41,785 nucleotides of DNA from Candidatus Zixiibacteriota bacterium (lineage in GTDB: Bacteria; Zixibacteria; MSB-5A5; GN15; FEB-12), in the NCBI GenBank assembly GCA_024277795.1, contig JAJRUL010000038.1:1-41785 (forward strand). The letters run 5' to 3'. Made by a program: the position numbers and the translations under genes. The notes beneath the pieces are model-generated. The model did not search any database, was not told the DNA's origin, and saw nothing but the letters and a program-made list of their open reading frames with translations. Within the stretch, counting starts at the first letter, position 1. The number at the start of each line of letters is the position of its first letter. This document shows positions 5,967-21,336 of the stretch, piece by piece.

Positions 5967-8593
5967 GGTATCACCGCAAATTTCCCCCAGCGAGTTTCAC
6001 CGGACGACAACTCTAACTTCATATAATACACTCCGACAGCAACCTCATCCCCTTTTCCGTTCAGACCGTCCCAAGTCGGCAAACCTGAGTTTCGCCCCTG
6101 ATACACACCCGCAGGATATTGCTGATTGTCAATGAGCCTTTTCACTAAATTCAATGCCATATCATATATCTCAAGCGTTACCGTTTCATCTTCTCTCAAC
6201 ACAAACCTAAAATCGATACCTGTACCGTCACTCGACCGATAGGGGACAGGAAAGGCGTATACCTCATCATCAGGCGTTTCAACATCGACATAAAAGTAAC
6301 TCGTGTCGGCCACTAATGTATTAAGCGCTACCTTGACAGTCGCTTGATCAGTTCCAACCCACAAATAGTCACCGATAACACGTACAGCAACAGCATGGAA
6401 TTCACGCTGACCCGGTTCAACCAATGTATCACCAAATACATTCACAAGTACAAGTGTATCCCATGTCAAACCAGTGTCTGCATAGTTCATCAAAACACCA
6501 ACATCAGTAGCCACAAAGGTAGTATCACCGTTGAAAGCAAAGTTCCACGCAAATCTATTCTGAATCCTGTTTCCCCATCTGAGATCATGCCGTACATATT
6601 CGGGGAGCGTATCAGAAGCAATAGGATTCCCTGCAGAATCAACAGGGAAATAGACTCCGACTGAAATTCCATCATTTCCATCAAAAGTCGGTTTAGCCGA
6701 TACCCATATCCTCGGGAACCCATTATCAAAATGCTGAATCCCTATTGCAGGAATAAAATCCCCTGAAATTGCTGTCAATGATGAAGCTCTCGAGTGATTT
6801 ATGACAAGATCAGCTCCTAGCGAATCTCTATTAGGACGAAGAATCACAAATGAACCTGCTCGGTTGTTGGACAATGCAAACCCATTCTCTGTTGCAATAA
6901 CAACAGTATCCCCATGTACTGACATTGCAGTAATAATATCGCTGTTGAGATTGTCAGCATTGGTACTATCTGACACTGGGAATCCGTTTGCAGGATTACT
7001 GCCATCTGTCGTAAGTCTTATCCCTTCACTCCCAACCACAAACGCCGTATCGCCAAAAAATGCGAAATCATTCGTTAAAACCCCCCATTGCATTGCCACC
7101 CACGCTGTATCCACCTCACCAACCTGTCCGAAGATATTGTCATGTGATCGAAAAACAACAGCTGTCCCACTATCAGTTATTGGCCTATTGCTCAACCAGA
7201 TCGCAAGCGAATCCTGAACTAAACCAGTCGAATCAAAGAAGTATTGCGTCTTTATATTGGTAACACGACTAGAGCTAAACGCTCCTTCAGGAAAAACAGC
7301 ATATCTGGAAGAGTCAATCAATCCCGTCGGGCTCAAAAATAACGTAACCAAACCTGAATCAGTCCCAACTCTGAGAGTATCGTATGAGGACTCGAGCGCA
7401 AACACAACATTACGACGGTTTGCAGGAGTTATGTTTGATGAATCAACATAGATATGAGTCCATGTTAACCCTGTATCAACCGAGACAAACAAACCTCCCT
7501 CTTCACCGGCCAAATACAACCGTTGATTGATCGAAGCGAAGGAATGAATAGTTCTGTTTAATCCGATCACCTCTGAAAAAGAAGAAAGTGCAGTATATGA
7601 CAATCCACCGTCATCAGAATAGGCCAGCCCTGTTGAAGCACCACCCGAAGAATCTGCCGTTCCGACAAAAATACGATTCGCAAATACATAGACCTCAGAA
7701 ATCATTGCCCCGGGCAAACCGTCTCCTGTAAACCGTGAAATAGCAGGAAGACCCGTTGTATGAACCCGTGTCACTCCCGTATCTCCTGCAAGATAGATAA
7801 AGCTCTCAGAACCACAACTGTCGCAAAAAACGACAGAGCTGTACTTACGTGAATATACTTTTTCTTCCTTGGGAGCAAAGATATACTGAAAGACTCCTCC
7901 CGCTGTTCCTGTCCACAAGAAGAGTGAATCTCCGTGAGTCGTGTCAACCTGACAAGAAAAGTAGAGCGTCCGAACTGGAGGAGCTGGTAAAGTATTGAAG
8001 TCAATAGAATCTGATCGAGAAGAGTAGATCCTCCGCCAGTTTATGCCTCCATCTGCTGACGCTAACAGTCCCCCCGCAAAACCTGCAAAGAAAAGCCAAT
8101 CCTCATTTTGCGAAGGATCATAATGTCCCGTAATATCAAATATCGATCGATTTCCGCCTATAACTTGCGGAATATCCAACCCTGTAGAGGAAAAATCAAT
8201 TGTTGTAAAACTCGCCCCATTGTCGTCTGTGTACTGCAAAGCATCGGAAAAACCGACAGATGCACCGTCTACTAATTCAGAGTGACCAGTAGCAACCCAA
8301 AGCCTCCCTCCGATTGAAAAAAGAGCCGAAAGGTCGTTGGCGACTAAACCATTGGTATTGTCATAGAGAAGCCAAGTAACACCATTGTCGAAAGTGAAAT
8401 TCAGACCGTCTCCAGTAGCCATCCAAATACCACCATCATGCTCAATAATATCAACTACGGAATTGGAAGCAATAGATGTATCAGGTTGCTCCATGAATGT
8501 GGCTACTCCTGCATACGCAGATTGCGCATATAAAAAGACCACTACGGGAATCAGAAACCAAATGCGGGTAAGCTCTTTTTTGATAGACTGCAT
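5963..8593 (-). CDS. Secreted BNR/photosystem-II-HCF136-like beta-propeller protein with FlgD-like C-terminal domain
   Basis: A large exported protein of 876 residues. The N-terminus has a signal peptide (IWFLIPVVVFLYAQSAYAGV). Most of the chain is propeller-type repeats of the kind DDGGLSYTAL, SVDTGLTWTHIYV, TFDNGVTWLLYD and SADGGINWRRIYS, i.e. sialidase/BNR or sortilin-like blades. The last roughly 90 residues form a FlgD Ig-like domain: a PVPYR motif in place of PNPF, then LEIYDMALNLVKRL, PAGVYQGRNSGLPTWDG and VAVGVYYMKLEL, ending GKFAVIP. This domain resembles type IX sorting domains. An AAGGA Shine-Dalgarno sequence precedes the ATG. Natural ligand unknown; it is the first gene of the propeller-PorV-PorV group. 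Confidence 0.87.
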   Translation of the reverse strand: MQSIKKELTRIWFLIPVVVFLYAQSAYAGVATFMEQPDTSIASNSVVDIIEHDGGIWMATGDGLNFTFDNGVTWLLYDNTNGLVANDLSALFSIGGRLWVATGHSELVDGASVGFSDALQYTDDNGASFTTIDFSSTGLDIPQVIGGNRSIFDITGHYDPSQNEDWLFFAGFAGGLLASADGGINWRRIYSSRSDSIDFNTLPAPPVRTLYFSCQVDTTHGDSLFLWTGTAGGVFQYIFAPKEEKVYSRKYSSVVFCDSCGSESFIYLAGDTGVTRVHTTGLPAISRFTGDGLPGAMISEVYVFANRIFVGTADSSGGASTGLAYSDDGGLSYTALSSFSEVIGLNRTIHSFASINQRLYLAGEEGGLFVSVDTGLTWTHIYVDSSNITPANRRNVVFALESSYDTLRVGTDSGLVTLFLSPTGLIDSSRYAVFPEGAFSSSRVTNIKTQYFFDSTGLVQDSLAIWLSNRPITDSGTAVVFRSHDNIFGQVGEVDTAWVAMQWGVLTNDFAFFGDTAFVVGSEGIRLTTDGSNPANGFPVSDSTNADNLNSDIITAMSVHGDTVVIATENGFALSNNRAGSFVILRPNRDSLGADLVINHSRASSLTAISGDFIPAIGIQHFDNGFPRIWVSAKPTFDGNDGISVGVYFPVDSAGNPIASDTLPEYVRHDLRWGNRIQNRFAWNFAFNGDTTFVATDVGVLMNYADTGLTWDTLVLVNVFGDTLVEPGQREFHAVAVRVIGDYLWVGTDQATVKVALNTLVADTSYFYVDVETPDDEVYAFPVPYRSSDGTGIDFRFVLREDETVTLEIYDMALNLVKRLIDNQQYPAGVYQGRNSGLPTWDGLNGKGDEVAVGVYYMKLELSSGETRWGKFAVIP

Positions 8594-8905
8594 CGAATCC
8601 TTTTCTTTACATTCAAATCAGAATACGCTCTACTTTTTAGCCTGCTAATATCCAACTGCAATTGTTCGTTCACGTACTGCAGAACAAACAGGCAGAACAA
8701 AATATCAACAAACTGTGCTCAAAAATGCCCTTTCGGACAACGCTTCGATCATAGTAGAAAGACAGTTCGATAGCAAGTTATTTCAAAGAGGCTCCTTAAT
8801 GGCGGTATCTCTTAAACTTGTAAGTTGATAGATAGTTCCAGCCTTTGAGCTGTGTTGTGCTGTCATTTTTTGGAAAAGGTAAACTACTGCTTGTCTATCC
8901 ACAGA
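8594..8905. other. 312-base leader region upstream of the propeller gene
   Basis: No gene is supported. It contains a short inverted repeat TTGTTC / GAACAA (8662-8667 and 8682-8687) and a doubled GCAGAACAAA. A minus-strand promoter for the propeller operon is expected here, but I do not see convincing -35 and -10 boxes. Confidence 0.4.
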
Positions 8906-10315
8906 TTACCTTTGTAGTGCACTTTTCTCAAAAGTCACAGCACCCAAAACAGAATCAACGCAAAAATAATGTTCGTAATGAAAAGGGACAAAAAAGAGAG
9001 ATAAACCTGTCAAACTGGCTCCCAGATCAGGAGCTTCCAAAGAAGAGGATACATTCGCTATCTCACGGGCGACAATTACCTCGGCCATCACAAGTGCTTC
9101 ACGAGGACCGATTGCTACAGGTTGAAAACGCCCATCTGTACGAGCGAGCGATTGCATATTCATCTCCATCATTGCAGAAGAGATCCGTCGAGTCAGACGG
9201 TAAGTAGCCTCAAAATTACCCAATCGAATCGCTGGAATCACTAATCGATCTGAATAATGCAAACCACCCCAAAAGCTCCTAAGCCTCTCACCTATTTCCT
9301 CTGTAATATTGAGTGACCAAAAAGGTATCATCATATCATCTTCATTGCCAAAACCGGCAGTACAAATATCGGGAGAAACTAAATCACATGGTTCAAGAGA
9401 TGTAAGCTGACGACAATTGCCACAAATATACAGAAATGACTGTTCACGTGAAAGGTCGATACCACAATTGCTACAACGATGAAAACCTACTGCTATCTGA
9501 CCAAAACTCATAGTCGTTTGCTCAGGAATGACCACCTGCTCAGGATCTGCAGGATCACTCATATAGTCTATAACACGTCCCGTTATACAATCAACAATCC
9601 ACCTTCCGAATCCTCCTGGACTATAAGACTCTGCTATACAATACGGAAAATAGATCAGAGAACCGGAAGGACGATACATTTCTGTCCGATTCTTGCCAAA
9701 ATCAGCCGCTTCAATCCTACCTACTGACTCAACAGAGTTTCTTGCCCGTTTAACTGCTTCCTCCACATTCAAAACGACTGGCAAAGCGACAAACCTATCT
9801 TCTATATTTTCCTCTGAGAATGTTTCGACCCTCAGATATTCTGTACGCAAACCAAGGGAACATGGTATACCGGGCAAGTTGAAACCTGCGGGGAATGTAA
9901 CTGTGTGGGGAGAAAGAGAAATATCAGTATGTCTTGACTCAATCTCCACAGGCGGGTCATGTTTATTCCCCCCGCCCGAATGAACAATACTAATACGGTT
10001 GCGAGTCTTAAGAACAATGGAATCAACCTTCCAATATGGATAATAGAAAAACTTGTACTGAATATCCGAATCAGTTAGTGGACTATCATGTTCCTTCTGA
10101 AAGCGATCAATCTTGAAGCGGATTTCCCTCTGCCTAACCGCAGAGCGAACAACATATACTGGTGGCAAATCCGGCATAACAACCCGTAGTGTTGACCCGC
10201 AATAATCACATTGTAGAACAAAAAAGTTCTCCTGTAATTCAAGTGCACCACCACAGCCGGGACAACCGACCTCAATGTAAAAACCTCTCTTAGCTTGATT
10301 GGTTGTTGCTCTCAT
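8906..10315 (-). CDS. Zinc-ribbon protein, YdjG-like partner of an SPFH protein
   Basis: About 469 residues. The N-terminus is a treble-clef zinc ribbon (CPGCGG at 18-23, CDYCG at 36-40); a second ribbon lies near residue 280-305 (CSNCG then CGNC). Between and after them are aromatic-rich segments of the YYPYWKVD and PFWSLNI kind. The layout recalls B. subtilis YdjG and related zinc-ribbon proteins encoded beside SPFH proteins. I chose the ATG at 10315 because GGAAAG lies about 8 bases upstream; an ATG at 10357 would overlap the previous gene by 68 bases. The chosen start still overlaps that gene by 26 bases, so coupling is likely. No transmembrane segment is obvious. A membrane-stress role is inference. 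Confidence 0.7.
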
Positions 10316-11423
10316 CCGATTGCTTTCCACATTCGCCACAGAATTTTGAACCTGCAATCAACTCCGAAGAACAATGCGGACAACGGGTCTTCGCATCCAA
10401 CTTCAGCCCGCATTTAAAACAATATCCTGCTTCTGTTGGCAATGATGTTCCACAACCATGACAAACATTTTGGGCAATCATCTGGTGACCACACCGATAG
10501 CAGTATCGTGACTGCTCAGGTGTATCAGTATGGCATTTTGGACATGTAACTGTTGCAACTGGTTCGCGCTTCAGCTCAGTCTGTTCAGGGGCGAAAACCT
10601 GATGCATCACACTTGGCATCATCATCCCGACACCTGCCGCCATCCCAATACCCGCACCAGCAGAACCTGCTCCGCCTGTTCCCCCCATCCCTTTAGCCAT
10701 CTCATACTTCAAGAACTTATCAAGATCGCCAACAGCTTCCATTCCGGAACGTTGATCTATCATCTTCGATACCTCATCTGGAGGTGTGATTGATGAAATA
10801 AAGAAGTCAACAAGCTCAAGACCATACTTTGCAAACTCTGAATGGACAACTCCTTTGAAATCTTCTGCTAACTCTGTATACACAGCAGGAAGATCAAGAA
10901 TTGAATCAAGTTGCTCACCAAGCAGATCATTCATCCTCGCAACTATAACATCACGCAGATAATCTTGAATATCAGAGGTTGTATATTTGGACTGACGGCC
11001 AACTAGTGAATTGAGGAACAATGACGGATTCTCAATCCGCATAGTATAAGAACCGAATGCACGCAAACGAATCAAACCGAGTTTGCTGTCTCTAAATGTT
11101 ACTGGATGAGAAGTCCCCCACTTCAAACCGGTAAACACTTTTTGATTAACGAAATAGACTTCCGCCCTAAATGGTGAGTCAAACCCAAACGGAAAAGCGA
11201 GCAAACGAGTCAAAATCGGCACATTGAGCGTCGAGAGAGTATGCCTGCCCACAGAAAATTGGTCGGCCGCATGCCCATCTTTGAAGAAGATAGCCATCTG
11301 TGAATCACGGACAATTAGTTGTGCCCCAAGCTTAAAATCAGCGGAACCCTCCTGAGGTAGTCGGTAAATCATCTCTTCACCCGATGGATCCATCCACTCG
11401 ATAATCTCGATCAACAATGACAT
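10290..11423 (-). CDS. SPFH-domain protein with C-terminal zinc ribbons (YdjI/COG4260-like)
   Basis: A 377-residue stomatin/prohibitin-family protein. The SPFH domain covers roughly residues 20-230 (opening [50 protein letters not shown]). A Gly/Ala/Met-rich hydrophobic linker follows (about 245-280), then three zinc ribbons of the CPKC...CYRCG, CHGCG...CFKCG and CPHC...CGECG type in the last 90 residues. In B. subtilis the YdjF-I group ties a PspA homologue to the membrane through YdjG/YdjI; here the YdjG-like gene overlaps, but no PspA gene is in view. GGAG lies 7 bases before the ATG, and a perfect TATAAT stands upstream within a palindrome. Confidence 0.85.
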
Positions 11424-11439
11424 AATATACTCCTGAATA

Positions 11440-11461
11440 ATAATGATTCTTTCTCATTATA
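11440..11461 (-). promoter_or_regulatory. -10 box and overlapping palindrome upstream of the SPFH gene
   Basis: On the minus strand a perfect TATAAT occupies 11461-11456. It overlaps a perfect palindrome, ATAATGA (11440-11446) and TCATTAT (11454-11460) with a 7-base spacer. Placement over and just after the -10 box is typical of a repressor operator. The -35 region is weak. The spacer is too long for a standard Fur box, so the regulator is unknown. Confidence 0.55.
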
Positions 11462-11550
11462 TCGGGTCGCCAACTCAATGCTTTATCATGAGGAACAACC
11501 ATCCCCTTTTTTGGTAGAAACAATACCTCTATTGGAATTGGAGATTCTAT

Positions 11551-11579
11551 TTGACTGCCGGAATCAGCAGGATTATATA
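11551..11579 (+). promoter_or_regulatory. Sigma-70-type promoter of the PKD lipoprotein gene
   Basis: TTGACT (11551-11556), a 17-base spacer, then TATATA (11574-11579). The predicted start near 11586 leaves a leader of about 25 bases with the AAGGAAAGAG ribosome-binding site before the ATG at 11611. This placement excludes an upstream start at 11551. Confidence 0.7.
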
Positions 11580-11610
11580 CTGTGTATACAATAATAAAGG
11601 AAAGAGACTG

Positions 11611-13005
11611 ATGAAGAGAAACATAGCCATCTTAGGATTTGCAATCATGATTATAACAATAATCTGGTCTATACCCGGCTGTGACACTCTAGTAACTGAA
11701 ACAGTTGAAACCGCAGGACACCCAACCGCAGAATTTACAGTAAATGTCGACTCAGGTTGTGCCCCTCTTACTGTCTCATTTTCCGATGCCTCCAGCGGGC
11801 CCCATGATGTATGGCTTTGGCAATTCGGTGATGATAGCACTTCTGTGGAAAGCGACCCAGTCCACACATATACTGAAGCGGGAGTATACACTGTTCGCCT
11901 TGAAATCAAAGATACAGAAACTGACGGTTCCGATATTGAAATAAAACGTCGTTTTATCATTGTAGGGGCAACTGTCGGCGACTTTGGAGCATCTGATACT
12001 GTCGCATGTCCCGGAACAGAAATAACCTTTACACCGACAGATTTTGGCGGGGTCTCCTCATGGCTGTGGAGTTTCGGTAAACCGGGGTGGACATCAACCG
12101 ACTCTATCCCCTCATGGACATACCCCGACACAGGCATCTATACAGTCTCTCTGACATTGAATACATCGAGTGAAGGTTGCGGAACCAAAACAATTATCGA
12201 CAGCAACCTGATTCGCATACACGAGTGCCCAAAAGTACAATTTGTCATCCAGAACACCTCAGGGTGCTTACCGCTCTCGGTACCGTTCGCTGATAGCTCC
12301 ACACCGGCAACAGGAGAAGCAATAACGTCTCGTTTATGGGACTTCGGAGATGGACAAACATCAACCGAACAGAATCCTACTCATATTTATGATTCTTCAG
12401 GAACATTTACTGTCAAACTTACGATTGGCGATACCGGGGGAGGAGTCTCTGTCGATTCCCTTGCTAATGTCATAACTGCCTATGACACGCTCATCCCCAA
12501 TATGCTCGTCCTATCCGACTCGACAGCCTGCTACTCATCATTCCAACAATTCCAGGTCAAGTTCGACATGGATATCTTTACTGATATCGATAGTTTCCTC
12601 TGGAATTTTGGTGACGGAATTATTGCTACTGATTCTGCTCCAGTGCATGCCTATGTCACCCCGGGAATCTATGATGTTCAACTCAATGTCTGGGGACAAT
12701 GTATCAACGACTCAATTATCAAACCGGGTCTAATCATTCTCTCCGACACACTCGATTCTCTGCTTGCAGGAATAAATATTGTCCCTGCCAGCGGTGTTGT
12801 TGCTGACACCTTTACAATTAGTGCAACCTCTCCAAATGTCATGACTGGATGGGATTGGGCTTTAGGTGATGGTACAACTGCAACTGATTCAGGGGCGGTA
12901 ATAACCCACACGTATGCAGATAGCGGATGGTACCAAATCCTACTCACTATCCGCAACGGTTGCGGATCAATTACTATTTTGGATTCTGTTCGAGTCGACT
13001 TGTAG
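11611..13005 (+). CDS. PKD-repeat surface lipoprotein
   Basis: 464 residues counted from the ATG at 11611, which has a good ribosome-binding site (AAGGAAAGAG) and sits after a strong promoter. A lipoprotein signal is present: MKRN, a hydrophobic stretch, then IPGC with Cys24 as the lipidated residue. The mature part is five PKD-type immunoglobulin-like domains in tandem, with cores WLWQFGDD, WLWSFGKP, RLWDFGDG, FLWNFGDG and WDWALGDG, each followed by a TYxxxGxYTVxL strand. The first four domains carry an extra Cys near their start (SGCAPL, VACPG, SGCLPL, TACYS). The fifth has a degenerate core and lacks that Cys. No enzymatic domain is attached, so a structural or adhesive role at the cell surface is likely. 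Confidence 0.85.
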   Translation: MKRNIAILGFAIMIITIIWSIPGCDTLVTETVETAGHPTAEFTVNVDSGCAPLTVSFSDASSGPHDVWLWQFGDDSTSVESDPVHTYTEAGVYTVRLEIKDTETDGSDIEIKRRFIIVGATVGDFGASDTVACPGTEITFTPTDFGGVSSWLWSFGKPGWTSTDSIPSWTYPDTGIYTVSLTLNTSSEGCGTKTIIDSNLIRIHECPKVQFVIQNTSGCLPLSVPFADSSTPATGEAITSRLWDFGDGQTSTEQNPTHIYDSSGTFTVKLTIGDTGGGVSVDSLANVITAYDTLIPNMLVLSDSTACYSSFQQFQVKFDMDIFTDIDSFLWNFGDGIIATDSAPVHAYVTPGIYDVQLNVWGQCINDSIIKPGLIILSDTLDSLLAGINIVPASGVVADTFTISATSPNVMTGWDWALGDGTTATDSGAVITHTYADSGWYQILLTIRNGCGSITILDSVRVDL

Positions 13006-13104
13006 AATAAAATTGTACGTATAACCTGTTTTTGTTTGAAACCTACGCCCACTTGACCCCGTAAATCCTATCATATCGAATAATCTGCCTTGTATGGAGG
13101 AATT

Positions 13105-13707
13105 ATGAAGCTGTTGCTAACACTCACTTTTATAACCCTGCTTGCACTACCGGTTAAGGGGTATAGCAATGAAGTCAATATCGGATATAAAGGGAATGAC
13201 AATATCTCGTATGATATTTCGCGCCACTCTTTCACTGTTCATGGAATCACGATTGACTTTAAGGATAGAGTTCTCATTCTCGACCATGTAGACTATAGTG
13301 GCGAAATAATTGAATTCACACCAGATCATGAACTATTCATCAATGATAGCAAAGTACCATTAACTCCTGACCAACAAGTTTTGGTCAAAGATTTCTACAA
13401 TGAAATGAGGTTTGTTTTCAAAGAGACCAAGTCAATAGGTGTTGAAGGAGCAAAAATCGGCCTGCATGGTGCCCAAATCGGTTTAAGTGCTATCGGTGGA
13501 CTATTCAAAATGTTGCTTACCAACTATAATGAAGATGACTTTGAACGTGATATGGAAAGACGTTCCAGCAAAATTGAAAGACGAGCTAAACGACTTGAGC
13601 GTAGAGCAAACAAACTTGATGATGCAGTTGAAAATGTCACACATCTTTCTGTCGAAATGTACCAGCAAATACCCGCACTCCAAAAAGTTGAATGGCTCAG
13701 CGACTAA
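13105..13707 (+). CDS. Exported protein of unknown function, DUF2884/YggN-like in outline
   Basis: 200 residues from the ATG at 13105, preceded 5 bases upstream by GGAGGA; the in-frame ATG at 13090 lacks such a site. A signal peptide is clear (MKLLLTLTFITLLALPVKGYS). The middle has a strand-rich region, then LTPDQQVLVKDFYNEMR and a Gly/Ala-rich helical stretch (GVEGAKIGLHGAQIGLSAIGGL). The C-terminal part (about 142-185) is highly charged and helical, with repeated ERRAKRLERRANKL, probably a coiled coil. The order (exported, a short L.I.....LT..Q segment, helix) recalls DUF2884, but this is a loose match from memory. It lies 99 bases after the PKD gene. Confidence 0.65.
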   Translation: MKLLLTLTFITLLALPVKGYSNEVNIGYKGNDNISYDISRHSFTVHGITIDFKDRVLILDHVDYSGEIIEFTPDHELFINDSKVPLTPDQQVLVKDFYNEMRFVFKETKSIGVEGAKIGLHGAQIGLSAIGGLFKMLLTNYNEDDFERDMERRSSKIERRAKRLERRANKLDDAVENVTHLSVEMYQQIPALQKVEWLSD

Positions 13708-13929
13708 CAGCACCTTTCCCGAATAGATAGTAGTTCGAAGACAAGTCTGCTTACAGAGTTTCCAAATAGTAGTTGAATAGCTCAAATACTAAACACACGC
13801 GTCGCGTATTCTATCTTCGCTTTGTCTTTGTTATTCCTCAGATCATATTTTCTTCATAAGTTAGCCCCCCTGCACTCCCAACCCTTTTTCTTCATAAGTC
13901 CGGTTGCTCGGTCGAAGAATAGATAATAC

Positions 13930-14032
13930 GTCATCGCGAGGAGCAGTGCGACGTGGCGATCTCTCTCCATCGTTACGCAAAAGATTGCATCGCTTCTGTT
14001 ACGGAGAGTTTGCATTGCTACGCTCGCAATAG
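13930..14032. repeat. REP-like palindromic unit, copy 2
   Basis: It opens with GTCATCGCGAGGAGC and GCGACGTGGC, nearly the same as the inverted right arm of the unit at 2729-2806. It closes with TTGCTACGCTCGCAAT, the inverse type of end. The interior differs (ATTGCATCGCTTCTGTTACG), so the unit is diverged or composite. Confidence 0.6.
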
Positions 14033-14083
14033 AGTGCCCCCCAGAGCGGAGCGCCGGGTGGGCTCTTTGCTGAATTCATCCTT

Positions 14084-14127
14084 CTGTCGGGTCTTGCTTT
14101 TGACTTGTCAAAAGTGTGACCCGACAG
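14084..14127. repeat. 44-bp palindrome, copy 2
   Basis: Same length and plan as 2821-2864: 21-base arms around a 2-base centre (TT), again preceded by CATCCTT. The arms differ from copy 1 by an A-to-G change at arm position 6 that is matched by the compensating T-to-C on the other arm. A 3-base mismatch block in the right arm (GTGTGA for GCAAGA) opens an internal loop. Confidence 0.75.
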
Positions 14128-14147
14128 CGAATCGATCAAATTCAAAC

Positions 14148-14179
14148 AAAAAAAGGTGGAATCATTTCGATCCCACCTT
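14148..14179 (-). terminator. Intrinsic terminator of etfA
   Basis: Arms 14153-14163 and 14169-14179 pair over 11 bp with one mismatch and a 5-base loop. On the minus strand the hairpin is followed by a T-run. It lies 33 bases past the etfA stop. Confidence 0.85.
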
Positions 14180-14211
14180 ACATAAACCGATGAATCATGC
14201 AATACGTCTGC

Positions 14212-15168
14212 CTAACCCAACTCCGCTTTGAACTTCGCAGTCAAGGCTGGGACGATCTCAAATGCATCACCAATTATACCATAATTGGCCACGTTGAAAA
14301 TCGGCGCGTCTTTATCTTTGTTTACTGCTACGATAGTCCCCGATCCTCGCATTCCAACAAGATGTTGAATTGCACCTGAGATCCCTACTGCTATGTACAA
14401 TTTCGGATTAACTGTCTTACCTGTCTGCCCTACTTGATTGCTGTATGGTGTCCAACCAGCATCAACAATCGCACGAGAGGCACCAAAGGCAGCACCCAAT
14501 GCACTCGCAAGATCATGCACAAGCGGAAGGTGTTCCTCAGCTTTCATACCACGACCAGCAGCCACAATAATATCTGCTTCGGTTAAATTGATTGACCCTG
14601 TTGACTCAGATTTAACCTCATCAATCGACATCTTGACGTCGAATGTGACTGCCTCAATTGTTTCAGCAACGACCTCACCTGAACCATCTTTTTGCTCAGC
14701 AAAAATCTTAGGACGAACAGTAAGTAAGTATGGGCCTTTTTTGGCAATCAACTCGGAAATAACTGCTCCACCATAATGAGGACGCGATGCAACAACATTG
14801 TCACCATCAACTCGCAAAGCTGTTATATCAGAGGCCAATGGTGCGTCGAGTTTTCCCGCCAAACGACTGAAGAGTGCTTTGCCGTAAAAACTTGCAGGTC
14901 CTAAAACAATATCAAACTGATGTTTGTTAATCAACTCAGTCAAGACATTGGTGTAAAGTTCATCATTGAAATGTTTCAGATTCGGATGTGAAACTGTAAG
15001 AACTTTCCCGCCCCCACGAGAGGCAAGTTCCGAAGCGGGAGTATCAGCATTTTCAGCCAATATGACAGAGCTAAGATCCCCATTAAGGCATGTGGCCGCA
15101 GTCAACAATTCATATGTAGCAGGAACTACATGTCCATCTTTTTGAAGCCCAACTACCAAAATTTTCAT
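14212..15168 (-). CDS. etfA: Electron transfer flavoprotein alpha subunit
   Basis: Alpha subunit of the FAD-containing electron carrier that takes electrons from acyl-CoA and related dehydrogenases. 318 residues, full length. The N-terminal alpha/beta domain starts MKILVVGLQKDGHV; the C-terminal FAD-binding domain shows AAGRGMK, AFGASRAIVDAGW, QVGQTGKTVNPKLYIAVGISGAIQHLVGM and the terminal VNKDKDAPIFNVANYGIIGDAFEIVP. An AGGTG site lies 6 bases before the ATG. A promoter (15216-15244) and an intrinsic terminator flank it, so it appears monocistronic. The usual partner etfB is not adjacent: upstream is dusB and downstream is the repeat gap. Confidence 0.95.
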   Translation of the reverse strand: MKILVVGLQKDGHVVPATYELLTAATCLNGDLSSVILAENADTPASELASRGGGKVLTVSHPNLKHFNDELYTNVLTELINKHQFDIVLGPASFYGKALFSRLAGKLDAPLASDITALRVDGDNVVASRPHYGGAVISELIAKKGPYLLTVRPKIFAEQKDGSGEVVAETIEAVTFDVKMSIDEVKSESTGSINLTEADIIVAAGRGMKAEEHLPLVHDLASALGAAFGASRAIVDAGWTPYSNQVGQTGKTVNPKLYIAVGISGAIQHLVGMRGSGTIVAVNKDKDAPIFNVANYGIIGDAFEIVPALTAKFKAELG

Positions 15169-15215
15169 CTATTCACCTCATCCTTTATCCATTTTTCATT
15201 CGCTAAAATCAAACA

Positions 15216-15244
15216 AATATAGAGAGCAAGAGAACTCACGGCAA
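15216..15244 (-). promoter_or_regulatory. Promoter of etfA
   Basis: On the minus strand TTGCCG (15244-15239), a 17-base spacer and TATATT (15221-15216). The predicted start leaves a leader of about 40 bases before the etfA ATG. Confidence 0.6.
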
Positions 15245-15291
15245 GACAATAGCGATAACAATCTTCGTATTTTATAAAACCGTATTACTAT

Positions 15292-16260
15292 TTACCATGT
15301 TCTTTGATACTCCGCAAACAAATCATTCATATCTGCAATTGTAGTGACTTGAAAGAGTTTTGGCCTCAACTCCGATGCCCCTCGAAAGCCTTTTACATAC
15401 CATCCGAGATATCGTCGCATCATAACAACCCCTTTTTCCTCTCCGAATTGCTCAACCATCAAACGGGCATGAATCTGAGCCATTTCGATTTTTTCATCTA
15501 CAGTAGGGGGATCTGGTCTTATGCCTGTTTCAAGATAATCATTCATCGCTTTGAAAATAAACGGATTCCCCAATGCCGCACGCCCAACCATAACCGCATC
15601 ACACCCTGTCTCCTCAAGCATTCTTTGTGCATCACGACAAGTGTTGACATCTCCGTTGCCAATAACAGGAATCGAGACAGCTTGTTTAAGCTTACGAATA
15701 GCCGACCAGTCTGCGGAGCCTGAGAACCCTTTCGCTCGGCTTCTTGCGTGAAGGGTAACTGCTTTTGCCCCGGCTCTCTCAGCAATCTTCCCAACTTGCT
15801 CAAAAACAGGACAAGATTCATCCCAACCAGTCCGAATTTTGATTGTAACAGGTGTCTCCCCTGCCCCTTCAACTGTTGCTTTGATTATATCCTCAGTGAG
15901 AGAAAGATCTTTCAGAACTGCCGCACCTCCATTGCGCCCGACAACTTTCTTGACGGGACAACCAAAATTGATATCAATCAAATCTGGTCCTATTTTCTCA
16001 ACTGTAATAGAGGCAGCTTCTTTCATCACTTCAGGCTTAGCTCCAAAGAGTTGAATCCCAACAGGCTGTTCATCTTGATGAATCGCCATCATTTCCATAG
16101 TACGAGTCTGGTTACGTATTATCCCCTCAGAGGAAACCATTTCCGTATAAGTCATTGCCGCCCTGGCTTTTATAGCCAAAACTCGAAACGGCCTGTTTGA
16201 GACACCAGCCAAAGGTGCTGAGAGCACCTTACCTTGAAGCGTTAACTTTCCAATATTCAT
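15292..16260 (-). CDS. dusB: tRNA-dihydrouridine synthase, DusB type
   Basis: Flavin-dependent enzyme that reduces specific uridines in tRNA to dihydrouridine. 322 residues. The TIM-barrel FMN domain opens with LSAPLAGVSNRPFR. The catalytic acid Cys101 is in INFGCPVKKVVGRNGG. KIRTGWD, TLHARSRAKGFSG (with the FMN-phosphate region) and PVIGNGDV, then VMVGRAALGNPFIF, follow in order. The C-terminal helical tRNA-binding domain contains MMRRYLGWYVKGF. No Shine-Dalgarno sequence precedes the ATG, and the -10 box is only 6 bases from it, so the mRNA may be leaderless. DusB subtype is by overall similarity. Confidence 0.94.
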   Translation of the reverse strand: MNIGKLTLQGKVLSAPLAGVSNRPFRVLAIKARAAMTYTEMVSSEGIIRNQTRTMEMMAIHQDEQPVGIQLFGAKPEVMKEAASITVEKIGPDLIDINFGCPVKKVVGRNGGAAVLKDLSLTEDIIKATVEGAGETPVTIKIRTGWDESCPVFEQVGKIAERAGAKAVTLHARSRAKGFSGSADWSAIRKLKQAVSIPVIGNGDVNTCRDAQRMLEETGCDAVMVGRAALGNPFIFKAMNDYLETGIRPDPPTVDEKIEMAQIHARLMVEQFGEEKGVVMMRRYLGWYVKGFRGASELRPKLFQVTTIADMNDLFAEYQRTW

Positions 16261-16266
16261 GCCGAC

Positions 16267-16295
16267 AATATAAGCAACTCGTCAATTTACAACAA
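16267..16295 (-). promoter_or_regulatory. Promoter of dusB, placed for a leaderless transcript
   Basis: On the minus strand TTGTTG (16295-16290), a 17-base spacer, then TATATT (16272-16267). Transcription would start about 7 bases on, at or next to the A of the ATG at 16260. It is back to back with the FHA gene promoter region (TATAAT at 16326-16331, plus strand). Confidence 0.5.
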
Positions 16296-16325
16296 GCGTA
16301 CAGAATGAGCTTCTGGACGGTTATC

Positions 16326-16331
16326 TATAAT
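16326..16331 (+). promoter_or_regulatory. -10 box of the FHA-phosphoesterase-kinase operon
   Basis: Perfect TATAAT; the -35 region is weak. The start of transcription would be near 16338, with about 50 bases of leader before the FHA gene ATG at 16388. The in-frame ATG at 16331 would lie before the transcript start. Confidence 0.4.
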
Positions 16332-16387
16332 TGATGAGAGATCAAAGTTGGAAAAAAAGAACGCGAGATATACCGAAGGACTCGGCT

Positions 16388-16834
16388 ATGCCAGAAATCG
16401 TAGTCAAGTATGACAACAAGGTGATCGAACGAATCGTCACCGAAAAAAAACGAATTTCAATCGGCAGGACTAATGACAATGATGTGGTTCTGGAAAATCG
16501 TGGTGTTTCCCGAAAACATGCGATGATTGAATTCAACAACAATGCAGCTGTAGTGATGGACAACGAGTCCCTCAATGGTACGTTCGTCAATAGCAGAAAA
16601 ATCACGGAAGAGATTCTGCGCGATGAAGATATTATTACAATTGGCAAATACCAACTCATCTACCATAGCGATAGTTCACAGGAAACCGATGAAGGAGCCA
16701 ACTTTGACGGCACTATGGTGCTTAATACAAAAGCCCAGAAAAAGCTGGTAGAAAACGACAGAAAAGACCGGGAAGTTGTTGAACGTTATGGTGGTTCTGT
16801 TCTTGTCGCACAAGAAAACGCTGATTTCTCATAA
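16388..16834 (+). CDS. FHA-domain protein, N-terminal half of an interrupted two-FHA protein
   Basis: Phosphothreonine-binding signalling protein. It is 148 residues from the ATG at 16388, chosen because GAAGGA lies 7 bases upstream. The FHA domain (about residues 5-92) has all key residues: Gly26-Arg27 in ISIGRTND, Ser41 and His44 in GVSRKHA, and Asn63-Gly64-Thr65 in LNGTFVNSR. A linker with FDGTMVLNTKAQKKL follows; this TMVL(N/D)TKAQ segment is familiar to me as the phosphorylatable link of two-FHA proteins. Translation then stops at TAA (16832), yet the same frame continues at once as a second FHA domain to 17086. It heads an operon with a phosphoesterase and a Ser/Thr kinase, a natural source of the phosphothreonine ligand. 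Confidence 0.85.
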   Translation: MPEIVVKYDNKVIERIVTEKKRISIGRTNDNDVVLENRGVSRKHAMIEFNNNAAVVMDNESLNGTFVNSRKITEEILRDEDIITIGKYQLIYHSDSSQETDEGANFDGTMVLNTKAQKKLVENDRKDREVVERYGGSVLVAQENADFS

Positions 16835-17086
16835 TACCGCCTCGAACGGGACGTTGTGACTATCGGCAAGGCAAAATTCGTCCATATCCGGGCTAAAGGC
16901 TTCTTCCTTTCTGGGATTCAAGCAAAGATAGTAAAGGAAGATAACACGTTTTACGTAGCAAATTTAGGCCGAAAAGGGAAAACAAAAGTCAATGGCGAGG
17001 AAGTCGACCGTTGTCACATTAAAAACGGCGACATTATCTCTGTTGGTAAGACTGTCTTCAAATTTGTTGAGGCTTCTCGTCTATGA
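16835..17086 (+). pseudogene. Second FHA domain, in frame after a TAA stop
   Basis: The 83 codons after the TAA at 16832-16834 read YRLERDVVTIGK..., then GFFLSGIQAKIV, TFYVANLGRKGKTKVNGEEV and IKNGDIISVGKTVFKF. This is a degenerate FHA fold of the kind that ends two-FHA proteins (RAKGFF replacing the usual SRxH region). The only fault is one stop codon one residue before the first strand; there is no frameshift. Restart from GTG at 16856 is possible, but it would drop the first strand and has only a weak GGGA site. The reading frame is otherwise clean and its TGA overlaps the next gene's ATG. It may be a broken gene, a read-through product or a sequencing error. Confidence 0.7.
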
Positions 17087-17811
17087 AAATTGCCTTAATC
17101 TCTGACATTCATGGTAATCTTGAAGCTTTAACTGCTGTTCTCATCGCCGCCGAACAGGCATCGGCTGATGTAATCTACTGTCTTGGAGATGTAGTCGGAT
17201 ATGGAACAGATCCGTCTGCATGCCTAAAACTTATAGATAAAACCTGCCGAGTAAAACTAATCGGCAATCATGAATATACAGCACTCGGTAGGTGTAGTAC
17301 CGAAAAATATACGGAGCTTGCACGAATCTCATCTGACTGGACAAGAAATATCCTGACAGATGAAGACCTGGAAATGATACGACAATTCGATCTTGATTAC
17401 TCAAGTGACAATACGAGATTTGTACATGCTTCCCCTTATGAACCCGAAAAGTGGAAGTATATCCTCAAACCTGATCAGGCAAAAAAAGCATTTGACTGTT
17501 TTGATGAGGCAATGTGCTTTGTTGGACACACCCACTTACCGATGATTTTCACCGAAGTACCAAATGATAATCCGAAAAAGAAAATCGGACATGATTTTGA
17601 GCCTCATGAAGAGAGCAGATATATTGTCAATGTTGGTTCAGTAGGTCAACCGCGTGACAATGACCCTCGGGCTTCATTCGTCATATATGATAATGTCGAA
17701 CAAGAAGTACAATTCTGCCGAGCAGAGTATGATATAACGACAACACAAACAAAGATTAGTCAGACAGAACTGCCATCACTATTGGCTGAACGACTGGCTA
17801 TCGGGCGATAG
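17083..17811 (+). CDS. Calcineurin-like metallophosphoesterase (YfcE/MJ0936-like family)
   Basis: 242 residues, cytoplasmic, predicted two-metal phosphoesterase. All motif residues are present: Asp8 and His10 in SDIHGN, Asp36 in GDVVGYG, Asn62-His63 in GNHEY, His115 in FVHASP, and His149 and His151 in VGHTHLP. INVGSVGQPRD-type sequence (VNVGSVGQPRDNDPRAS) closes the fold, as in the predicted phosphodiesterase subfamily. Its ATG overlaps the FHA frame's TGA by 4 bases, so coupling is expected. Only 12 bases separate it from the kinase gene. It could remove phosphates laid down by the kinase, but this family often acts on small phosphodiesters, so the substrate is open. Confidence 0.88.
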   Translation: MKIALISDIHGNLEALTAVLIAAEQASADVIYCLGDVVGYGTDPSACLKLIDKTCRVKLIGNHEYTALGRCSTEKYTELARISSDWTRNILTDEDLEMIRQFDLDYSSDNTRFVHASPYEPEKWKYILKPDQAKKAFDCFDEAMCFVGHTHLPMIFTEVPNDNPKKKIGHDFEPHEESRYIVNVGSVGQPRDNDPRASFVIYDNVEQEVQFCRAEYDITTTQTKISQTELPSLLAERLAIGR

Positions 17812-17823
17812 GATTCAGGACAT

Positions 17824-20265
17824 ATGAACAAGTATTCCTCTTATATTCTGTACCTTTTGACATCAGTATTCGTGGTCATTCTTTATGCCAACGGATTTGG
17901 TCCATTGGAGAACCTGCAACAGTCTCTTGATGACTTCCTCTGTCAGGTAACTTCAAAAGAGGGAATACGCCCAAATGTAATCAAGATCGAGATTGACGGC
18001 CGATCTCAGGATGAGTATGGCCCCTGGCCCTGGAATCAAGATCGAATTGCAGACCTTTTGGCGGCAGCAGCAGCTGGTGAACCGAAAGCGATTGCTGTTC
18101 GTTTTGATTTAAGCGAAGATGCAACACAAGATTCTGCGGGCTATACCAATATCCTCGCAGGTCAACTAACATGGATTGATAACGTTGTCTTACCCTACGA
18201 TATCGCTCTTGCAACATACCGAAGTGATAAAACCAATAACACAAAATATCTCTTTGAACATTCAGTAACAGTAGATAATAAAGTCGGTATTTTGTCTGAA
18301 AACTCTTCACTCTTGGTACGTAAAGTCTTCCTGCCGGCAGAAAAACTTCTGCAAAGCAAACCAAAAGTCGGTTTCGATTACGTCCAGCCCGATCAGGATC
18401 GTATTCTCAGACATGAACCGACAATCATGAATTTCGACGGGTACTATTACCCATCTCTTTCACTGCTTACTGCCGCTACTTACTTGGGAGTCCCTGCTTC
18501 ACAAATCGAAGTTATCGAAGGAAAAGAAATCAATATAGGATCCAAAGTGAGTATACCGATCAATTCTAAAGGTGAGTTTTATATCAACTTTGCTCCTCAG
18601 AACTCATTTACAACAATATCCGCCGCTGATGTCCTCTCAGAAGATTTTAATCGTACACGGCTAAAAGACAAAGCTCTATTAATCGGTCCCGATGTATTTA
18701 TAGACCGCGAAACATTCACTACCCCTGTAGACCCAAGTGCAAGTCGACTGACAATCGATGCAAATATCATTGAAAATATCATCAATCAAAACTTTGTTGT
18801 TCCTAAAGAAAAACAGCCTTTAACAGATATGGCCATCCTGTTCCTCCTAGGTGCGATTTGTGCATTTGTCCTGCCACAGGTGAATCTTTCATACAGAATG
18901 GTTATACTGTTCATCGGCTTTATCATTCTTGCAAATGTAAACTATTTCCTTATTAGTTCATTTAGCATAATCACAAACACTATATATATTGCACTTGAGT
19001 TACTGCTCTTCATGGGTGTCGCGCCAATTCTTGACTCCTCTCTCCTTTCAGGTGAAGAGGAAGAAGAAACTGATTCAGATCGCCCTCTACCGAAGATTAA
19101 TATCTCACAAGAAATAGAAAAAGAAGCACCTGTTCGTGAGATTATCTCCTCTCCTAATGATCAAGAAAATCTTCACACAGCTGCAATCTCAGACTCTCAG
19201 GAAATTTATCCCGATGATCATCAGGCAGTAAACCTTGATGTTTCGTTAGAAAAAACATCCGCAACACCTAGCGATGGTCTCAATCCAAATATGGAATCGA
19301 CATCAGCTCAACCGGAGATTATATCAAGCAAAGGCAATTCAGATAATATCTCTGAACCTGATGGTCTGGATGAAGAGTCAATCGCTTCAAGTGAGAGTCA
19401 ACCATTAAGTGAAATCAAGCTATCTGCTGATAATGCTAAGAATCTTGGACGCTACCAAATAACAGGAGTTCTTGGTAAGGGTGCAATGGGTCTTGTCTAC
19501 AAAGGTGTCGACCCGGCGATCAATCGTCCTGTCGCACTTAAAACAATTAGACTCGATTTTGTAAATGACCCTGAAGAGATGGCCGAGCTCAAAGAACGTC
19601 TATTCCGCGAAGCTCAAGCCGCTGGTAAACTCTCACATCCAAACATTGTGACCATCTATGACGTTGGTTCTGAGGGACATTTACAGTATATAGCGATGGA
19701 ATATCTTGAGGGACAAACCCTTGAGGATATGATCAAGAAGAAAACCAAGTTCAATTATCGTATTATTGCACAGATTATCATGCAAATCTGTGCAGCGCTA
19801 CAATACGCTCATGAAAAGGGAATTGTCCATCGTGACATTAAACCTGCCAATATCATGGTACTCAAAGACTATAAAGTCAAGGTCATGGATTACGGAATCG
19901 CTCGAATCGACTCTAACTCGATGACCAAAACGGGTATCGCTATGGGTACGCCGAATTACATCTCACCGGAGCAACTCAAAGGACAAGCTGTTGATCGTCG
20001 TGCTGACCTGTTCTCATTGGGTGTTGTTATGTATGAAATGGTCTTAGGTCGCAGACCATTCAAAGGTGAAAATATAACATCCTTAATCTATGCAATTACA
20101 ACACAGGATCCGAAGATGCCCTCAACGATAAACCCTCAAATCCCTCTCTTGTTTGATCATATAATAGGACGTGCATTAAAGAAAAATCCAAACGAACGAT
20201 ATCAAAAAGCTTCGGAAATTGCCGCTAATTTAAGCGATTTTGTTGAGAGCTTCTCAATAAAGTAG
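17824..20265 (+). CDS. CHASE2-domain Ser/Thr protein kinase
   Basis: 813-residue transmembrane receptor kinase. The order is: one N-terminal membrane helix (about 8-25); an extracytoplasmic CHASE2 sensor (about 35-325, with VIKIEIDGRSQDEYGPWPW and INFAPQNSFTTISAADVL); three membrane helices (about 335-410); an acidic Ser/Glu-rich linker (about 415-535); and a kinase domain (544-805). Kinase residues are intact: GKGAMG loop, Lys573 in VALKTI, HRDIKPAN with Asp671, and the metal Asp689. The metal motif is DYG, not the usual DFG. The activation segment contains TKTGIAMGTPNYISPEQL. It is the last gene of the FHA-phosphoesterase-kinase operon. Threonines in the activation loop and linker are likely FHA ligands; that is inference. 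Confidence 0.93.
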   Translation: MNKYSSYILYLLTSVFVVILYANGFGPLENLQQSLDDFLCQVTSKEGIRPNVIKIEIDGRSQDEYGPWPWNQDRIADLLAAAAAGEPKAIAVRFDLSEDATQDSAGYTNILAGQLTWIDNVVLPYDIALATYRSDKTNNTKYLFEHSVTVDNKVGILSENSSLLVRKVFLPAEKLLQSKPKVGFDYVQPDQDRILRHEPTIMNFDGYYYPSLSLLTAATYLGVPASQIEVIEGKEINIGSKVSIPINSKGEFYINFAPQNSFTTISAADVLSEDFNRTRLKDKALLIGPDVFIDRETFTTPVDPSASRLTIDANIIENIINQNFVVPKEKQPLTDMAILFLLGAICAFVLPQVNLSYRMVILFIGFIILANVNYFLISSFSIITNTIYIALELLLFMGVAPILDSSLLSGEEEEETDSDRPLPKINISQEIEKEAPVREIISSPNDQENLHTAAISDSQEIYPDDHQAVNLDVSLEKTSATPSDGLNPNMESTSAQPEIISSKGNSDNISEPDGLDEESIASSESQPLSEIKLSADNAKNLGRYQITGVLGKGAMGLVYKGVDPAINRPVALKTIRLDFVNDPEEMAELKERLFREAQAAGKLSHPNIVTIYDVGSEGHLQYIAMEYLEGQTLEDMIKKKTKFNYRIIAQIIMQICAALQYAHEKGIVHRDIKPANIMVLKDYKVKVMDYGIARIDSNSMTKTGIAMGTPNYISPEQLKGQAVDRRADLFSLGVVMYEMVLGRRPFKGENITSLIYAITTQDPKMPSTINPQIPLLFDHIIGRALKKNPNERYQKASEIAANLSDFVESFSIK

Positions 20266-20832: not shown

Positions 20833-21045
20833 TCAATTGGACTTCTTGTTATCGGAGTTCTCATTTGAATTCTCGTCGTTCATTGATCCTTTGAATTCAT
20901 CAGTCGTATCTTTTACCGAACGTCTAAATTCACGTATCCCCTTACCCAAACCCTGGGCAATATCAGGAAGACGCTTCGCACCAAACAAAAGAAGAACAAC
21001 GAGAAAAATAACAATAAGTTCTGTGAGTCCCAGGCCAAAAGGCAT
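20833..21045 (-). CDS. tatA: Sec-independent protein translocase subunit TatA/E
   Basis: Pore-forming or adaptor subunit of the twin-arginine exporter of folded proteins. 70 residues from the ATG at 21045; GGAGGT lies 4 bases upstream, whereas the earlier in-frame ATG at 21057 has no such site. One N-terminal membrane helix (LTELIVIFLVVLLLFGAKRLPDI, including the conserved FG hinge) leads into an amphipathic helix (AQGLGKGIREFRRSVKD) and a polar acidic and Asn-rich tail. No tatB or tatC is in view. It sits between a DUF4321 membrane gene and an unknown gene. Confidence 0.93.
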   Translation of the reverse strand: MPFGLGLTELIVIFLVVLLLFGAKRLPDIAQGLGKGIREFRRSVKDTTDEFKGSMNDENSNENSDNKKSN

Positions 21046-21069
21046 GATGACCTCCATATATTTGATGGT

Positions 21070-21336
21070 TTATAAATACCACCATCTGAAATAAATAATT
21101 ACCAACAGTAAGACCAAAGCCGACATGAAGTTTATTTTCAACATGAATCCAAAAGTAAACAAGACAGCATAAAAATCAACTTTGATTGTCTCAAAGCCGA
21201 TTGAAATAGATTGTGTAAACAATGTCTTAGCTGCACCCGGGGGCAGGTATGTTCCTATAATTTCACCAATCAAACCACCGACAACAGCACCCAAAATAAG
21301 CGACACTAAAATAAATGTAACTTCACGTTTCTTCAT
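21070..21336 (-). CDS. DUF4321-like small membrane protein
   Basis: 88 residues with two or three hydrophobic helices: a first Gly-rich one (FILVSLILGAVVGGLIGEII), the middle (VDFYAVLFTFGFMLKINF) and a last (ALVLLLVIIYFRWWYL). The SIGFETIKVDFY and KINFMSAL segments and the terminal FRWWY match what I recall of DUF4321 proteins, whose function is unknown. It is packed between purQ (2 bases) and tatA (24 bases). Confidence 0.75.
   Translation of the reverse strand: MKKREVTFILVSLILGAVVGGLIGEIIGTYLPPGAAKTLFTQSISIGFETIKVDFYAVLFTFGFMLKINFMSALVLLLVIIYFRWWYL

Follow-up and report, generated by a model that had tools for sequence, protein, structure and literature searches.

The in-frame TAA at positions 16832-16834 of the window, which interrupts a gene for a signalling protein with two FHA domains, is truly in the assembled sequence, but the organism itself most likely does not have it; the main rival to this view is a true nonsense allele. 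We consider it probable that the TAA is one of many G>T substitutions scattered over this MAG, each of them a consensus error or a guanine-damage artefact and not a product of cell biology. Sequence error or damage takes first place because the MAG holds many such stops, the clear ones are all compatible with G>T, and some of them fall in essential genes.

The window, i.e., the whole stretch of 41,785 nucleotides that was analyzed, is contig C250 of a Zixibacteria MAG (G000) of 2.96 Mb in 252 contigs, with 90.7% completeness and 1.3% contamination. The set of relatives searched comprised 60 genomes, none of them congeneric with the source MAG, and a search for a second assembly of the same species found none.

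The interrupted two-FHA gene and its homologues

The whole read-through frame occupies positions 16388-17083, with the TAA as its sole interruption, and a good ribosome-binding site (GAAGGA, 16375-16380) precedes ATG 16388, the context of which is the same in the relatives. The sequence-only reading had described the TAA, 83 further codons in the same frame and two FHA domains; its coordinates were right, and Pfam FHA matches were obtained for both halves (1.3e-19 for the first and 6e-10 for the second). The features considered here are the following:

15292..16260, minus strand: divergent tRNA-dihydrouridine synthase (Dus) gene, intact; upstream in 50 of 73 related loci
16388..16831, plus strand: 5' part of the two-FHA gene, with FHA1, the linker and the first strand of domain 2; 148 codons from ATG 16388
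16454..16645, plus strand: FHA1 domain; nearest solved structures GarA and OdhI
16706..16723, plus strand: linker motif DGTMVL; Thr109 invariant in all homologues
16796..17068, plus strand: FHA2 domain, residues 137-227; conserved, without the canonical Arg, Arg, His and Asn
16832..16834, plus strand: in-frame TAA, codon 149; Glu in 56/59 homologues and Gln in 3/59
16835..17086, plus strand: same-frame continuation after the TAA; 83 codons and TGA 17084-17086
16856..16858, plus strand: GTG, proposed restart, after the second strand of domain 2; judged unlikely
17083..17811, plus strand: calcineurin-like metallophosphoesterase gene, which overlaps the FHA gene by ATGA and directly follows it in 73 of the 76 related loci with enough flank
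17824..20265, plus strand: CHASE2-domain Ser/Thr protein kinase gene, intact; downstream in all 70 related loci with room for it

The read-through protein has 59 full-length uninterrupted copies in 58 of the 60 relative genomes, with 60 to 78% identity, and the named relatives that carry them are Zixibacteria MAGs. Since the alignment with these uninterrupted homologues runs from end to end, the two-FHA read-through frame is not a product of chance. The sequence-only reading had allowed for the two domains being always separate genes, a case which is absent, the homologues always being one gene. A search for a second intact copy of the FHA gene elsewhere in the MAG found none.

At the codon homologous to the stop, the 59 copies have GAA (29), GAG (27), CAA (2) or CAG (1), and in a second collection of 80 loci, drawn from GTDB and overlapping the first, the residue is Glu in 68, Gln in 8, Lys in 3 and Met in 1. 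A stop at this position occurs in 0/59 homologues and in 0/80 loci of the overlapping collection. In the close match L006, the sequence is GAT TTC TCG GAA TAC CGT, compared to GAT TTC TCA TAA TAC CGC here. The single base change proposed from the letters alone is supported and sharpened by these codons, and the simplest event would be a single G>T transversion, from GAA to TAA.

Different from what was first proposed, the stop does not lie one codon upstream of the first domain-2 strand. The TAA takes the place of residue 149, which is inside the domain, since the first domain-2 strand in the AlphaFold2 model (mean pLDDT, 80) spans residues 138 to 143, the next one spans residues 149 to 151, and the profile match of FHA2 to the FHA domain of Bdellovibrio DgcB starts at residue 137. 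Termination at the TAA would leave a product with FHA1 and the putative switch Thr of the linker but without FHA2.

Domain 2 is without decay in the MAG. In the conservation of domain 2 relative to domain 1, the source genome ranks 21st of 59, and it presents one private change at the near-invariant domain-2 columns, which is an ordinary count; relaxed selection on domain 2 was thus not seen. Since domain 2 is no more diverged here than in the other copies, the comparison suggests that normal selection either still acts on the FHA gene or ceased to do so very recently.

These observations bear on the possibility that the sampled population really carries a recent nonsense mutation, which would leave a 148-residue protein made of FHA1, the TMVL linker and a broken FHA2 and would possibly reduce the translation of the coupled phosphoesterase gene. 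One base change suffices for it, the gene is otherwise intact with no secondary decay, and nothing marks the FHA gene as essential. However, elsewhere in the order the gene is never broken, and the stops found in other genes of the MAG also weigh on this possibility.

Single in-frame stops across the assembly

Besides the FHA gene, at least 10 conserved frames of the MAG are broken by one in-frame stop. To reveal them, 757 kb (26%) of the MAG were scanned for coding frames split by one stop without a nearby start, and, in a comparative scan, proteins of the complete relative G027, amounting to 1.2 Mb, were aligned to the MAG. With the FHA gene included, the 11 interrupting stops are 9 TAA, 1 TAG and 1 TGA. 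The genes are listed below (asterisk, stop), under names based on recognizable motifs and homology and not on curated annotation:

L217:8652, plus strand: prfA, encoding RF1; AIV*MRAGTGGDEA; lost residue Glu in 11/11
L199:2778, minus strand: obg; ADIPGLI*GASEGKGLG; lost residue Glu in 10/11
L194:15643, minus strand: rnhB; DRM*AIYPSYSF; Glu in G027
L216:9771, plus strand: pabA; YRND*ID; TAG; Glu in G027
L104:6274, minus strand: gmd; TGMT*QDGSYL; TGA; Gly in G027
L103:5468, plus strand: M16 peptidase; NVLS*YSDLGLDVLA; Glu in 6/11 and Asp in 5/11
L350 (G000:C133): second M16 peptidase; SVEV*NTRQS
L209:12380, minus strand: gamma-glutamyltransferase (GGT)
L214:8371, minus strand: trigger-factor-like gene; lost residue variable among relatives
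L198:11546, plus strand: giant phage-like gene; TAA, EGY*FEEARVE

The last of these belongs to a region of L198 (G000:C10), at about 8200 to 20000, with a phage-like frame of more than 3,000 codons and phage-like neighbors.

Model bacteria depend on RF1 and Obg for viability. No second intact copy of either was found in the assembly, and no stop was found in the orthologues of RF1, Obg, the M16 peptidase or the trigger-factor-like gene in the 20 relatives searched for each. Given their essentiality and the lack of a second copy, true null alleles of prfA and obg would not be viable unless the stops were read through. The occurrence of like stops in two genes where a true null would be lethal argues against a nonsense allele in the FHA gene, which we regard as unlikely, although it keeps a real share of our expectation.

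Relative to the genomes compared, this MAG has an excess of stops. Aligned to the complete relative, the MAG presents 6 clean in-frame stops and 0 frameshifts in 165 kb of coding DNA, and the reverse comparison gives 0 clean stops in 204 kb of the complete relative (P = 0.008). As a control, 508 kb of aligned neighborhoods from 80 other Zixibacteria MAGs yielded 1 clean stop by our judgment, at a Leu in the kinase gene of L130 (P = 0.001), a count that holds if the other hits listed are antisense or gene-junction matches, as they appear to be. Frameshifts were also considered as a mark of long-read errors, and the 165 kb held none. A split-frame scan of G027, also intended as a control, gave a list flooded by shadow frames, probably from its higher GC content.

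All seven cases with a clear ancestor, including the FHA gene, fit a G>T change (GAA>TAA, GAG>TAG or GGA>TGA; P = 1.7e-5 under uniform changes); this set leaves out the trigger-factor-like, GGT, phage-like and second M16 cases, and several of the stop cases rest on one comparison, that with G027. The stops imply a rate of about 9e-4 per mutable codon. G>T is the signature of 8-oxoguanine in sequencing libraries (PMC8748355), and the pattern in the MAG resembles such artefacts, with an excess of G>T-type stops over the assembly, no indels and no regard to gene essentiality. An artefactual origin is the explanation left, and an inferred one, once real null alleles, recoding and a GO-repair mutator are disfavored. 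On the other hand, the usual 8-oxoguanine artefacts are low-frequency read errors, whereas the changes in the MAG are in the consensus, and a consensus error of about 1e-3 per guanine is high unless the depth was very low or a damaged template was amplified. Moreover, the clear cases are one-sided: on the coding strand every one of them is G>T, C>A being absent, compared to an expected G>T share of about 64%.

Taken alone, the stop in the FHA gene would suggest regulated read-through or gene decay, and the view over the whole MAG is a warning in this respect. By extrapolation, a MAG that is about 91% complete, with 1.3% contamination, can hold roughly a hundred stop codons of G>T character that are false or damaged, pass completeness checks and would be misread as pseudogenes or recoding. 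The TAA at 16832 is therefore of low interest as biology and useful as a caution about the MAG.

Recoding, restart and mutator activity as possible explanations

Among the four options originally put forward for the TAA, sequencing error, taken to include damage, is the most likely and a fresh nonsense mutation is possible, whereas regulated read-through and a restart at GTG 16856 gained no support.

If, in this lineage, a suppressor tRNA or leaky release allowed some UAA codons to be decoded as glutamate, the stop would be a decoding switch and the full two-FHA protein would be made. In agreement with this, 9/11 interrupting stops are TAA, and the clear ones are at Glu positions, also in essential genes; indeed, the first scan had found only TAA at Glu. 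However, TAG at Glu and TGA at Gly were then found, which is at odds with a single reassigned codon, and the TAA share is that expected from codon usage (9/11 versus 56%; P = 0.08), so that TAA-specific recoding was rejected. Furthermore, no UUA anticodon, as a suppressor tRNA would require, occurs among the 38 tRNA matches in the 91% complete genome, where two partial matches are pieces of tRNA-Arg(ACG). TAA is the normal terminator of 177 of 392 long ORFs, most commonly in the form TAAT, which is also the context at 16832. Finally, a stop subject to programmed read-through would be conserved among relatives, and the present one is shared by none of them (0/59 and 0/80). Together, the TAG and TGA cases, the missing UUA tRNA, the normal termination at TAA and the absence of the stop from the relatives contradict recoding or read-through of UAA, and we hold this explanation to be very improbable. 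Hardly any more credence, and if anything a little less, is due to the broader proposal that UAA serves in this lineage as both a stop and an occasional glutamate codon, with FHA, RF1, Obg and the other proteins made full length by decoding.

In a functional split, translation would end at the TAA and start again at GTG 16856, so that the two FHA domains would be made as separate proteins. The GTG is in frame and 21 bases past the stop, but the restart product would be without the first two strands of domain 2, inspection revealed no well-spaced ribosome-binding site before the GTG, and no homologue is split. We see this as the least probable of the explanations, with next to nothing in its favor.

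With regard to the mutational origin of the change, a mutator deficient in GO repair gives G:C>T:A changes (PMC11078426). The MAG has an unbroken mutM along with a mutY-like gene that scores about 170 bits, at the level of the relatives that have one; a mutator through the loss of mutM or mutY is thus not indicated, and it would not explain the stops in essential genes. The same lack of a mutator sign counts against a true nonsense allele. In the genomes G000-G044, no mutY match exceeded the NCBIfam cutoff, and only some of them had a mutY-like gene, of 156 to 173 bits.

The two-FHA family and its operon

Under the preferred reading, that of sequence error or damage, the assembled sequence would carry GAA>TAA in an otherwise intact two-FHA signalling gene, and the cell would most likely make one full-length protein of about 232 residues. 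FHA1 matches PF00498 with 70.8 bits (cutoff, 20.7), and the residues of the canonical phosphothreonine site (G26, R27, S41, R42, H44, N63 and G64) are invariant in 59/59 and 80/80 sequences. In the linker, Gly108, Thr109, Met110 and Thr114 are invariant across the aligned homologues of both sets.

FHA1 is closest to GarA and OdhI in both structure and profile, keeping all the canonical FHA residues, and the protein, like them, has a conserved Thr motif, with the gene of a Ser/Thr kinase nearby. In OdhI, the switch is the phosphorylation of a single Thr by a kinase (PMC9769921). However, GarA and OdhI are actinobacterial metabolic regulators, marked also by the inhibition of 2-oxoglutarate dehydrogenase, with a single FHA domain and an N-terminal Thr motif phosphorylated by a kinase, whereas the present protein, from Zixibacteria, has two FHA domains and a Thr motif C-terminal to FHA1, and the neighboring kinase is a CHASE2 sensor kinase and not PknG. 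It is possible to hypothesize that Thr109 of the DGTMVL motif is a phosphothreonine switch, a candidate both as the target of the kinase and as the ligand of an FHA domain. FHA1 would bind phosphothreonine, the CHASE2 kinase two genes downstream could plausibly phosphorylate the invariant linker Thr, and the phosphorylated residue could fold back on FHA1, a switch made plausible by the invariance of Thr109 and the presence of the kinase in the operon.

The second domain has distinctive features. FHA2 matches PF00498 with 39.9 bits (cutoff, 20.7), and its best match among solved structures is the FHA domain of Bdellovibrio DgcB (residues 137-227 to 7-100; E value, about 5e-9), although, different from DgcB, FHA2 is without the canonical phosphothreonine-binding residues and the GGDEF domain is absent. 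The replacements are Arg27 by Lys161, Arg42 by Gly176, His44 by Gln178 and Asn63 by Gly197. Despite these losses, the domain is strongly conserved, for instance, at Gln178, Asn202 and Gly203. Since the phosphopeptide site has lost its two Arg, its His and its Asn, FHA2 is probably a member of the FHA fold family that does not read phosphothreonine, and probably a structural or protein-binding module, which may act as a degenerate scaffold.

The operon is intact in the window, as the sequence-only reading had it, with the phosphoesterase, CHASE2 kinase and Dus genes all unbroken. The ATGA overlap is also kept, TGA 17084-17086 overlapping the ATG at 17083 of the phosphoesterase gene, and in most related loci the start of the next gene overlaps or touches the FHA stop. 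The intact family is of some interest in itself: throughout the Zixibacteria, the gene of the two-FHA adaptor shares an operon with those of a phosphoesterase and a CHASE2 kinase, and an invariant Thr of the adaptor is a candidate phosphothreonine. In another Zixibacteria MAG (L130; JAUXBJ010000028.1), a clean in-frame stop takes the place of a Leu in the downstream CHASE2 kinase gene (LPQVS*LYRIVI). Farther along the window, at about 20850-21070 on the minus strand, there is a small TatA-like ORF (MPFGLGLTELIVIFLVVLLLFGAKRLPDIAQGLGKGIREFRRSVKDT).
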